A stretch of DNA of 64,000 nucleotides, from positions 3,038,001 to 3,102,000 of the forward strand of contig NC_010681.1 in the NCBI RefSeq assembly GCF_000020125.1, given 5' to 3'. The first letter of the stretch is position 1; every line of letters begins with the position of its first letter. Of the stretch, positions 56,303 through 59,286 are shown in pieces. A program made the translations under genes and the position numbers. Below the pieces are notes generated by a model. The model had not been told where the DNA came from. It saw only the letters and a list, made by a program, of their open reading frames with translations, and ran no database searches. This DNA is from Paraburkholderia phytofirmans PsJN (GTDB lineage Bacteria > Pseudomonadota > Gammaproteobacteria > Burkholderiales > Burkholderiaceae).

Positions 56303-56779
56303 TCACTCCGGCGCATCCATCCCCGATTGCAGATAGTTCTGGATGCCGACCTTGTCGATCAACTCAAGATTCGTCTCGAGCCAGTCGATATGTTCCTCGG
56401 TGTCGTCGAGAATATGGGTCAAAATCTCCCGCGAGATGAAGTCGCGGACCGACTCGCAATAGACGATGGCCTCCTTGCAGGTGGCCTGCGACATCTGCTC
56501 CAGCTTCAGATCGCACTCCATGATCTCTTTGGTTTCTTCGCCGATCAGCAGCTTATGGAGGTCTTGCAGATTCGGCAGGCCGTTCAGCAGGAAGATGCGC
56601 TCGATCAGCAGATCCGCATGCTTCATCTCGCCGATGGATTCGTCATACTCATGCTTGCCGAGCTTATCGAGCCCCCAGTGCTTGTACATGCGGGCATGCA
56701 GGAAATACTGGTTGATCGCGGAGAGTTCGTTCTTCAGTTGCGCGTTCAGGTATTCCAGGACCTTTGGGTCGCCTTGCAT
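56303..56779 (-). CDS. bfr: Bacterioferritin
   Basis: This 158-residue iron-storage protein assembles into a 24-mer. It starts [20 protein letters not shown] after AGGGAGG. The heme ligand Met52 and ferroxidase ligands Glu18, Glu51, His54, Glu94 and His130 are present. By ungapped alignment the residue at E. coli position 127 (usually Glu) is Thr, next to Glu128/Glu129. It ends [13 protein letters not shown] Fur-box-like site lies 155 bp upstream; no adjacent intact bfd gene is visible. Confidence 0.95.
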
Positions 56780-57486
56780 GTTACCTCCCTGTTTCGTGTG
56801 CGAAGACCCCGGCGCCGGCGAAAGATAATGGATCGGGCCGGCTCCTCGGTGGCATTGCACCAGCACGGAACCTGCCTCACGGTTTATATTTTTTAGCCGT
56901 CATCCCAGCATAGCGCATCGAGTCGGCAAGGCAAAAAATGATAATCGTTCTCATATGTCTGACGACGAGCTTACGTCGGCGGGGACGACTTGCTGCAAGC
57001 GCCATGCCACAGGCCGCGCGGGTTTTCCGCCACAACGACGACAGCCGACGCGGTTCGCGCAATGCGCTCGGGATTTGATAGTGCGCCGCAAAACTCCTGG
57101 CCTCGGCAAACGCCCGCGACCCGGCCATCGACGGCGGGGTCGCTGAGCCGCCGAAAAGGCGGCACGACACTAGATACAGTGCTTGGCTCGCCTCGATAAA
57201 CGACTAGTATGGTTTGGTGAGCACGCTCCTCGGACCTCGGGGAATACAGCATGGCTCGCGACTCATCTGTCGCACAGACCCGGCACAGGATTGCGCCCTG
57301 ATGCCCGCTCCCGACGCACGTTAATGCGGTGCGTCATGACTTGAACGCGCCCGCTTCCTCACGCCGCGTAAAAACCTGTTTGCACGCTGCAACGCAAATG
57401 CGTTCGCCGTCGACAAGACGCCGGACCGTCTCTTGTGTTCGAGCGATCGACGAAACGATACCTGTCCGGCGCGAAGGAGCGACAAA
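56780..57486. other. 707-bp intergenic region between bfr and the Rieske-P450 gene
   Basis: I find no convincing gene here. It holds the Fur-box-like site, a possible bfr promoter, and an inverted repeat GACGCAC (57313-57319) / GTGCGTC (57329-57335) about 150 bp upstream of the P450 fusion. Short frames on both strands are arginine-rich and unconserved in appearance. Confidence 0.5.
56934..56952. promoter_or_regulatory. Fur-box-like site
   Basis: AAAAATGATAATCGTTCTC matches the 19-bp Fur consensus GATAATGATAATCATTATC at 15 positions. On the minus strand it is followed at once by TTGCCT, 16 bp, TATGCT, a plausible bfr promoter. Confidence 0.5.
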
Positions 57487-59286
57487 ATGAACGCGAGTCT
57501 TCAGGCAGTGCGTTCGGGTTCCCCGGACACGGTAGTGATAGCGCGCACGAAAGAACTCGCGGACGACGGCATCAAGGCGGCGAACATCGACGGCATCGAT
57601 TTGATCGTTCTTCGCCACGGCAACGCCATTTCGATTTTTCAGGGCCGCTGCCCGCATCAAGGCACGCTCCTGTCTGAAGGAACAGTAAAAGATGGCGTGC
57701 TCGCCTGCCGCGCACACGGTTGGCAGTTCGACTGCTCGTCAGGCTGCAAGCAAGGGCCAAGTAGTTCGAATCTGAAGCGCTTCGACGCAATCGTCGAGAA
57801 CGGCGAAGTTAAAGTCGATCGCAACGAAGTGCGCGCATGGAATGCGCAGCGCCCTGCCCCGGCAGTGATAATGCCGTGCCGCGAATCTGCCGTGAGATCG
57901 CTTGCCCAGCTCCCTGGCCCCAAGCGCGTTTCGTTTCTCGGCAATACGTTGCAACTACGTCCCGAGAAGCTGCACCTCGTACTCGAAGAGTGGTGCAGGG
58001 AATTCGGCCCCGTGTACACGTTCCGATTGATCGGCCGCCCATTCGTCGCGATCGCCGATCCCATTCTCATCAGTCAGGTGTTGCGCGATCGCCCTGGCGC
58101 GTATCGCCGCTGGAACGTGATCGAAACCGTTGCGCGCGAGTTGGGCATCAACGGCGTTTTCTCCATGGAAGGCGATGCCTGGCGACGGCAACGGCAACTC
58201 GTCGCCAAGGCGCTAGACCCTCTGCATCTGCGTGCCTTCTTTCCGTTGCTCTGCGAAATGACACGTCGATTGCTGCAACGCTGGGAGAAAGCGGAGCGCG
58301 AGCGGCAAATCATCGATATCCAGAAAGACCTGATGCGATACACGGTGGACGTCACCACCAATCTCGCGTTTGGATATGACATGGATACCATCGAAAGCGA
58401 GGGCGACGTGATCCAGCGTCATCTCGAAGTCGTGTTCCCGATGATCAACCGGCGGATCAATGCGCCCTTCCCTTATTGGCATTACGTCAAGCTAGCCGCA
58501 GACAAGACGCTGGATCGCGCCTTGATTGCGGTTCAGGCGCTCACGAAGGACCTCATCGCCGCCAACCGCGCGCGCCTCGCGCAGCGCCCGGAAACGGACA
58601 CGATGCCCACGAATCTGCTCGAGGCGTTGCTCATGGCGCAACACGATGGAGAAGCGCCGCTGACAGACGATGAAGTACTGGCCAATGTGTTCACCATCCT
58701 GTTGGCCGGACAGGACACGACGGCGAACACGATCGCCTGGGTGGCGTACTTCATTGCGTCTTTACCAGACGTCCAGCGAAAAATGCAGGAAGAAGTCGAT
58801 GCCGTTATCGGATCCGCAGCCATGCTCGAAGATTTTGACGCCGGAGACGCGCTCCTCTATGTGAACGCGGTCATCAGCGAGTCCATGCGGCTCAAATCGG
58901 TGACGCCCGTTCTTGCAGTCGAGCCGAATTACGACGTGCAAGTGGGCGACATTGCGATCCCGAAGGGCGCGGTGCTGTCGCTATTGACGCGCGAGGCAGG
59001 GCTGCAGCAAGGCGGCCATTCGGCGCCCGACGTATTCGATCCGGCCCGCTGGCTCACCGGCGAAAGTGCCGCCAGCCATCATCGAGCGGGGTTCATGCCG
59101 TTCGGCTCCGGACCTCGCCTCTGTCCGGGACGCAGCCTCGCCTTGATGGAAGTGAGATCAGCAGTCGCCATGCTGTGCCGCAACTTCGATCTGCTGCTGG
59201 TCGACAACGCGTCCGAGGTGGAGGAAGTGTTCGCGTTTTCGATGGTGCCGCGAAACCTGCGCATCGAATTGCGTCGACGCGGTTAG
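57487..59286 (+). CDS. Rieske [2Fe-2S] ferredoxin - cytochrome P450 fusion protein
   Basis: This is one 599-residue frame with two complete redox modules. Residues 1-118 are a Rieske ferredoxin: cluster ligands C55-P-H57 in GRCPHQGTLLSEG and C74-R-A-H77 in LACRAHGWQFDC. Residues about 141-599 are a P450. It starts QLPGPKRVSFLGN and has the C-helix W232xxxR236 and the I-helix AGQDTTAN (407-414). The ExxR pair is E465/R468, and the heme loop FGSGPRLCPG has Cys546. A roughly 22-residue linker joins them. Start at 57487 gives MNASLQAVRSGSPDTVVIAR. There is no signal peptide or membrane anchor. The Rieske part probably delivers electrons to the heme in cis; a separate reductase would still be needed and none is adjacent. 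Substrate unknown. Confidence 0.93.
   Translation: MNASLQAVRSGSPDTVVIARTKELADDGIKAANIDGIDLIVLRHGNAISIFQGRCPHQGTLLSEGTVKDGVLACRAHGWQFDCSSGCKQGPSSSNLKRFDAIVENGEVKVDRNEVRAWNAQRPAPAVIMPCRESAVRSLAQLPGPKRVSFLGNTLQLRPEKLHLVLEEWCREFGPVYTFRLIGRPFVAIADPILISQVLRDRPGAYRRWNVIETVARELGINGVFSMEGDAWRRQRQLVAKALDPLHLRAFFPLLCEMTRRLLQRWEKAERERQIIDIQKDLMRYTVDVTTNLAFGYDMDTIESEGDVIQRHLEVVFPMINRRINAPFPYWHYVKLAADKTLDRALIAVQALTKDLIAANRARLAQRPETDTMPTNLLEALLMAQHDGEAPLTDDEVLANVFTILLAGQDTTANTIAWVAYFIASLPDVQRKMQEEVDAVIGSAAMLEDFDAGDALLYVNAVISESMRLKSVTPVLAVEPNYDVQVGDIAIPKGAVLSLLTREAGLQQGGHSAPDVFDPARWLTGESAASHHRAGFMPFGSGPRLCPGRSLALMEVRSAVAMLCRNFDLLLVDNASEVEEVFAFSMVPRNLRIELRRRG

Follow-up and report, generated by a model that had tools for sequence, protein, structure and literature searches.

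A cytochrome P450 of the soil bacterium Paraburkholderia phytofirmans PsJN is encoded as one polypeptide with a Rieske iron-sulfur module. Both domains are complete, their ligands are conserved, both halves are under selection and the architecture recurs in several phyla. We estimate, with a probability of roughly three in four, that the protein is a P450 monooxygenase with its own built-in proximal electron donor, in which electrons would run from NAD(P)H through a reductase in trans to the Rieske cluster, and from there to the heme and O2. The fusion is probably a variant of P450 electron supply that is new within the literature searched.

The fusion gene and its conserved residues

The gene occupies positions 57487..59286 of the window (the whole 64 000-nt stretch of DNA that was analysed) and is read, like all of its features given below, from the + strand. 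Its translation yields 599 amino acids plus the stop codon, with internal stops absent. An AAGGAG ribosome-binding site was read in the sequence at 57474..57479; because it sits 7 nt 5' of ATG 57487, this start is favoured over the alternative TTG 57433, from which the frame would encode 617 amino acids. No promoter or terminator signal exceeding that of shuffled sequences was found in a scan, and a search of PHROGs returned no matches. The genome (8.2 Mb, 3 contigs) contains a single copy of the fusion and one other P450 above the Pfam cut-off. The latter, the only other P450 found, is a 417 amino acid protein (L126 8253-9506; contig C3, ~2083 kb) that adjoins what appears, by eye, to be a Ku/ligase D DNA-repair pair.

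The Rieske [2Fe-2S] domain (Pfam PF00355) covers residues 16–99 (57532..57783; E 1.2e-16, 60.8 bits, cut-off 20.3) and the cytochrome P450 domain (PF00067) residues 143–577 (57913..59217; E 6.7e-81, 272.8 bits, cut-off 22.8). They are separated by a linker (approximately residues 113–137; 57823..57897) that varies in length and sequence in alignment A1, and residues 125–133 of it have pLDDT <50 in the AlphaFold2 model of the protein. The first-pass annotation of this DNA had described an uninterrupted 599-residue Rieske and P450 fusion; the frame is indeed open over 57487-59286 with both Pfam domains complete, and the residue numbers that it gave (C55-x-H57, C74-xx-H77, AGQDTT 407–412, E465/R468 and C546) are all correct on translation.

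Conservation of these residues was analysed in 149 full-length fusions, kept from 161 proteins after removal of 12 that covered less than three quarters of one profile (including seven p450-only rows, three truncated rows, P0025 and the Rhodoblastus fusion); as the 149 were selected by match to profiles of the same family, degenerate Rieske halves would be lost from this set. In the first cluster ligand pair (C55-P-H57; 57649..57657), both Cys and His are present in 149/149 fusions. In the second (C74-x-x-H77; 57706..57717), His is found in 149/149 and Cys in 148/149, the one exception being homologue P0007, which has Gly in place of Cys74. The P450 half is similarly conserved: (i) the I-helix oxygen-activation motif AGQDTT (407–412; 58705..58722) retains D410 in 148/149, T411 in 148/149 and T412 in 147/149 fusions, as expected for an O2-using monooxygenase, (ii) the ExxR motif (E465 to R468; 58879..58890) retains E in 149/149 and R in 148/149 and (iii) the heme-ligand Cys546 in FGSGPRLCPGR (59122..59124) is kept in 149/149. 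The cluster ligands, the heme Cys and E465 are also retained in all 19 divergent fusions of alignment A3.

The fold of the P450 half resembles that of P450 BM3, CYP97 and CYP3A, and the alignment with solved structures spans residues 135–599. No solved chain spanning both domains was present in the Foldseek/VIA matches listed; P450 matches fill those lists, which gives this absence little weight. The protein thus has the attributes of the cytochrome P450 superfamily (fold, heme Cys, ExxR and the I-helix A/G-G-x-D/E-T-T motif) together with the C-x-H ... C-x2-H signature within a Rieske domain that marks Rieske [2Fe-2S] proteins. It falls outside the self-sufficient P450s (CYP102, CYP505 and CYP116B), which hold an NAD(P)H reductase in the chain, since only the Rieske and p450 domains score above cut-off; it also falls outside the Rieske non-heme iron oxygenases, because its C-terminal part is a P450 and not a mononuclear non-heme iron domain.

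Recurrence, selection and history of the fusion

A homologue search gave 2212 matches at E ≤ 1e-3 from 7996 candidates scored, and the best 120 were examined. Both Pfam domains are present in 113 of these 120 best homologues listed; the other seven are p450 only. Within the genus Paraburkholderia, P450 matches of some kind at E ≤ 1e-60 occur in 66 of 144 genomes and a full-length match including the Rieske half in 10 of the 144, all 10 being confirmed by profile. These 10 genomes and the 113 two-domain homologues exclude a sequencing error that joined two genes near codons 119–140, one of the outcomes that had been named as fatal to the fusion. When the order was sampled evenly, matches at E ≤ 1e-100 came from 12 of 349 genomes, the sole fusion being that of P. 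phytofirmans PsJN itself. Across 369 genomes of the class, three further P450 matches were found in two other genomes, none of them with an adjoining Rieske gene. The family is sparse.

Among named public genomes at least 564 loci were confirmed and 80 were kept for inspection. With profiles built from alignment A1, a single-ORF fusion was found in 22 of 116 loci, a partly redundant set in which L014 and L037 appear to be one record. Twelve of the 22 belong to the 80 named-genome loci: Burkholderia sp. SRS-W-2-2016, Paraburkholderia sp. NMBU_R16, two Cupriavidus, an Anaerolineae bacterium, Ca. Uabimicrobium, a Kofleriaceae bacterium, Sulfidibacter, an unclassified proteobacterium, a Porticoccaceae bacterium, Rhodoblastus acidophilus and Flavobacterium poyangense. 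At least six phyla possess the fusion (Pseudomonadota, Chloroflexota, Planctomycetota, Myxococcota, Acidobacteriota and Bacteroidota), and an intact copy lies on the Methylorubrum extorquens AM1 megaplasmid. Judged from these sequences, the fusion is phylogenetically broad but sparse, real and functional-looking.

Purifying selection acts on both halves. In comparisons with seven loci of the genus, dN/dS was 0.11–0.22 for the Rieske half (6 of the 7 comparisons; that with L015 was not computable) and 0.10–0.17 for the P450 half (all 7). The linker, of only 24–25 codons, gave 0.22–0.55 in the five comparisons out of seven that could be computed, and in the comparison with L011 its value equals that of the Rieske half. 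The ratios are rough where dS exceeds 1, as it does in several comparisons.

For the history of the Rieske half, a P450 tree was built from 78 rows, 42 with the fusion and 36 solo. The rows were picked by hand, one in two being taken from A1 and selected proteins and loci added. The fusion label needs 12 changes on this tree, against a mean of 26.1 when labels are shuffled, and at least 5 of the 12 are forced by starred branches (quick tree method); one of the solo rows, P0056, hardly differs from a fused gene and begins within the P450, and may therefore be a truncated gene model. The 12 changes indicate that the Rieske half was, as read from this tree, gained or lost several times; the tree is silent on which. 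Solo P450s of the same clade without a Rieske half occur at L017 and in Nitrospira (L043 and L044). The P450 at L017, a locus of the genus, is 73% identical, and there is no Rieske in the 17.4-kb stretch around it (L017/L125), so that some lineages can evidently do without the Rieske half.

A related P450 has its Rieske partner in a separate gene. The two genes of Gammaproteobacteria bacterium 45_16_T64 (L049) lie on the same strand in different frames: the P450 gene runs to 9401 and, 65 nt past it, a 116 amino acid Rieske gene begins at ATG 9467. A gene for an LCM-type methyltransferase then follows. We counted this proximity of P450 and Rieske genes as support for a Rieske–P450 partnership. 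The Rieske protein scores 32.7 bits against the fusion profile, no better than other free Rieske proteins, so the locus supports partnership and not common descent of the pair. It was the one such case among 88 loci with a P450 lacking a fused Rieske domain, and the split arrangement was thus not found to be a recurrent form. The three genes in a row (L049 7980-10662) are a possible split form of the system.

Rieske subtype, domain arrangement and proposed mechanism

When the Rieske half alone was compared with the PDB, its nearest solved relative was the toluene-4-monooxygenase ferredoxin T4moC (E 2.2e-11), followed by Rieske oxygenases and other oxygenase ferredoxins, with a weak match to a cytochrome b6f subunit (E 2.2e-5). 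Respiratory Rieske proteins have a hydrogen-bonding Ser after the second His ligand, at a position which we take to be equivalent to residue 79 of the fusion. This residue (second His +2) is Trp in 148/149 fusions, including W79 of the P. phytofirmans protein. Residue 81 (second His +4) is Phe in 127/149, among them F81 of the P. phytofirmans protein, and Tyr in 22/149. It would correspond to the position at which dioxygenase ferredoxins have a conserved Phe, and the Rieske proteins of mitochondria and chloroplasts only Tyr (PMC1847435). With no Ser or Tyr donors after the second His, and with oxygenase ferredoxins as relatives, the Rieske half is by sequence of the low-potential oxygenase-ferredoxin type; the 22 fusions with Tyr81 may differ.

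Residues 79 and 81 and the nearest solved relatives leave a high-potential reading unsupported. The "higher-potential" chemistry expected in the first-pass annotation fits the +100 to +400 mV of Rieske proteins in general (PMC6237146) but not the oxygenase-ferredoxin subtype, for which potentials near −150 mV are expected (PMC1847435), and finds no support in W79, F81 and the proximity to T4moC. As the potential of P450cam is quoted as −170 mV (PMC11638306), electron transfer from a cluster near −150 mV to the heme would be close to isoenergetic.

AlphaFold2 models were analysed for two fusions that are 45% identical: the P. phytofirmans protein with alignment A1 (56 rows; pLDDT 85.4, pTM 0.87) and P0075 of Ca. 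Uabimicrobium with alignment A5 (65 rows; pLDDT 91.0, pTM 0.89). The alignments overlap in rows, and the two models are therefore not independent. Such pTM values are hard to reach with ~77–79% of the residues in the P450, so the Rieske domain appears to be placed confidently. The models suggest a fixed domain arrangement rather than a free-floating Rieske domain.

Covariation was computed on the 149 fusions (Neff 103), with masks set after the first coupling list was seen. By mutual information the top interdomain pair is 75–545 (rank 1 of 46157), in which residue 75 adjoins Cys74 and residue 545 adjoins the heme Cys546. Of the 20 strongest pairs that involve the cluster tip, seven have their P450 residue in helix C or the Cys loop, where 1.4 would be expected, a count attained by 8 of 456 shifted masks; after shuffling of the P450 halves between rows, 1 of 200 shufflings reached the mean coupling of the tip to helix C and 0 of 200 that to the Cys loop. 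Inverse covariance placed 76–291 first among interdomain pairs and 75–545 eighth. Five of the top 30 tip pairs lie in a wider proximal mask that includes the meander (the count is not significant, 0.21; the mean is, 0.02). Mutual information with shifted windows gave 0.14 for helix C (not significant) and 0.029 for the Cys loop, the meander being without excess. In three random halves of the data 4, 4 and 5 of the 20 tip pairs remain, with 75–545 at ranks 205, 23 and 23, and among eight independent tree pairs the association between 75 and 545 was in the right direction, albeit not significant (median p 0.25). The covariation is not tip-specific, since the rest of the Rieske domain likewise has helix C or the Cys loop as partner in 5 of its 20 strongest pairs, a count attained by 0 of 456 shifts. 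It is a weak hint that points to the proximal face of the P450 and to no particular part of the Rieske domain.

We infer the direction of electron flow, the docking face, the trans position of the reductase and the oxidation of a substrate as follows. NAD(P)H would reduce a flavoprotein reductase encoded by a separate gene, and the reductase would pass electrons to the N-terminal low-potential Rieske cluster. On its linker of ~25 residues, the Rieske domain would dock with the His-ligated cluster tip against the proximal side of the P450, that of the Cys ligand, close to helix C and the Cys loop, and would deliver two electrons singly to the heme. The heme would then activate O2 via the D-T-T motif and oxidise the substrate. 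A precedent for direct donation is T4moC, which gives electrons directly to its oxygenase across ~12 Å between centres, with the cluster ligand His67 at the exit (PMC4200526).

Electron partners, rival readings and known systems

The neighbours of the fusion that were scanned in the window are acyl-CoA metabolism genes and genes for a MarR regulator, a ferritin-family protein, a DAO-type FAD oxidoreductase, an ABC transporter with its binding protein and an IclR regulator. A reductase of known P450-partner type was absent among them, in agreement with the earlier statement that no dedicated reductase is adjacent. We also surveyed 23 stretches with 277 genes, predicted by a simple gene caller that missed the fusion itself in L048; 75 chosen neighbour proteins were scanned from 17 of these stretches, two of which (L049 and L125) are without a fusion. 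This took up the comparison of gene neighbours recommended in the first-pass annotation, and it revealed no conserved operon hinting at a substrate or a reductase: no family occurs in more than 3 of the 75 neighbours, among 25 of 157 families listed, and Pyr_redox_2, the fold of many FAD reductases, occurs in two. Since no reductase recurs near the fusions, the reductase probably acts in trans.

Candidate reductases in the genome comprise 3 Reductase_C matches, located at C1:3450399, C1:292710 and C1:1464460, and 13 NAD_binding_1 matches, one of the Reductase_C matches being within a Rieske–reductase fusion. The separate dedicated FAD reductase of class I P450s was found neither adjacent nor recurring nearby, the three Reductase_C matches lying elsewhere in the genome. 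A possible electron donor is a 560 amino acid flavoprotein with an N-terminal Rieske domain followed by Pyr_redox_2/Reductase_C (L004 1366-3045; contig C1, ~1463–1465 kb). At ~288.4–293 kb of the same contig (L002, L003 and L128), an NAD_binding_1 reductase match, two VanA-type Rieske oxygenases and a Reductase_C flavoprotein are clustered, together with a small ferredoxin that looks 3Fe-4S-like.

The reading that survives best beside ours gives the Rieske half a role in sensing (of redox state or O2), in structure or in docking, while an ordinary ferredoxin feeds the P450 heme. The solo P450s of the same clade (L017, L043 and L044) indicate that such a P450 can work with another donor; the genome does contain, by eye, a 3Fe-4S-type ferredoxin beside a reductase, and both the lack of a reductase recurring beside the fusion and the covariation beyond the cluster tip are consistent with it. 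We nevertheless consider it unlikely, because four cluster ligands kept in 148–149 of 149 fusions would be needless for a purely structural role, and if the domain lies at the proximal face, to which the weak covariation points, it would keep an outside ferredoxin from binding there. Less probable still is a fusion that merely joins two activities, its Rieske half acting in trans as the ferredoxin of some other enzyme: Rieske ferredoxins of this kind do serve non-heme oxygenases, several Rieske oxygenases being encoded in this genome, but no family is found in more than 3 of the 75 neighbours scanned and an architecture kept from Bacteroidota to Proteobacteria better fits an internal partner. 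An assembly error, a chance run-on or a decaying pseudogene, for which no supporting evidence was found though the linker is variable, is ruled out by the identical single-frame architecture in independent genomes and by dN/dS far under 1 in both halves.

P450s are classed by their electron partners. The ferredoxin of the CYP116B enzymes is plant-type, XplA has an N-terminal flavodoxin on its P450 and the Methylococcus CYP51 fusion has a C-terminal ferredoxin of 3Fe-4S type; neither of the last two is known to have a Rieske domain. In both, the P450 is nevertheless joined to just one electron carrier and its reductase acts in trans, a plan that the built-in donor proposed here would share, with a Rieske domain as the carrier. 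The class I system P450cam–putidaredoxin, in which an FAD reductase reduces a [2Fe-2S] protein that docks at the proximal face of the P450 (PMC11638306), is alike in that a [2Fe-2S] protein feeds the P450, whereas the iron-sulfur protein of the fusion is a His-ligated Rieske inside the P450 chain. The class VII self-sufficient CYP116B enzymes (P450 RhF and CYP116B46) also combine a [2Fe-2S] domain and a P450 in one chain, in the order heme, reductase, ferredoxin and with an FMN reductase (PMC7260179), whereas the fusion has its Rieske domain N-terminal and has no fused reductase. It had been noted in the first-pass annotation that this layout departs from fusions with CPR, phthalate-dioxygenase-reductase or plant-type ferredoxin partners, and this proved correct. 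T4moC and the Rieske half have in common the ligand pattern and the CRAHxWxF segment; T4moC is a direct electron donor to a monooxygenase (PMC4200526), as the Rieske half would be by analogy, but it is a separate protein serving a diiron hydroxylase and not a heme enzyme. Rieske non-heme iron oxygenases likewise combine an N-terminal Rieske with a C-terminal oxygenase in one chain, the catalytic half of the fusion being a P450 in place of the mononuclear iron domain.

No description of a natural Rieske–P450 fusion was recognised, by title or opening of the abstract, in the literature searched, a body of text that lies outside most subscription journals and all bioRxiv preprints. Within the portions available of the papers concerned, no self-sufficient Rieske oxygenases are said to have been identified, P450 fusions being held up as the model (PMC12445004); two classes of self-sufficient P450 are named, neither with a Rieske domain and with the word Rieske absent (PMC7260179); and the P450 partners named are CPR, phthalate-dioxygenase-reductase, flavodoxin and ferredoxin, with no Rieske among them (PMC7260179, PMC11638306). 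One database source double-labels such proteins 'cytochrome P450/nitrite reductase/ring-hydroxylating ferredoxin subunit', and no study of proteins so labelled was found in the same literature. Of the earlier proposal of an undescribed system in the window, the first part holds, within the literature searched only; the system is not confined to the window, since the family spans several phyla. We lean, by a modest degree, towards a sparse, multi-phylum class of P450s defined by a built-in low-potential His-ligated Rieske domain that would reduce the thiolate heme from the proximal face, on a path in the style of Rieske oxygenases, and whose Rieske half was repeatedly lost, gained or split. If the proposed mechanism is true, two of the main biological O2-activation systems would be linked, a Rieske cluster would be able to drive a thiolate heme and a compact two-component P450 would be at hand for biocatalysis. 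The Methylorubrum extorquens AM1 copy makes the mechanism testable at once.

A ferritin-family gene adjoins the fusion in the window (56303-56866, − strand) and also in three close relatives (L117, L119 and L120); it lies ~6 kb from the fusion in L118 and L078, and another ferritin-like gene is near the fusion in L121 (10908-11381). This adjacency is treated as shared local synteny. In Flavobacterium poyangense (L095 40-17633) the fusion follows the gene of a 2524 amino acid polyketide synthase, and downstream of it are an apparent FAD monooxygenase, an acyltransferase, a free ketosynthase and an HMG-CoA-synthase-like protein (the last three by eye); this single case suggests a tailoring role for the Flavobacterium fusion.
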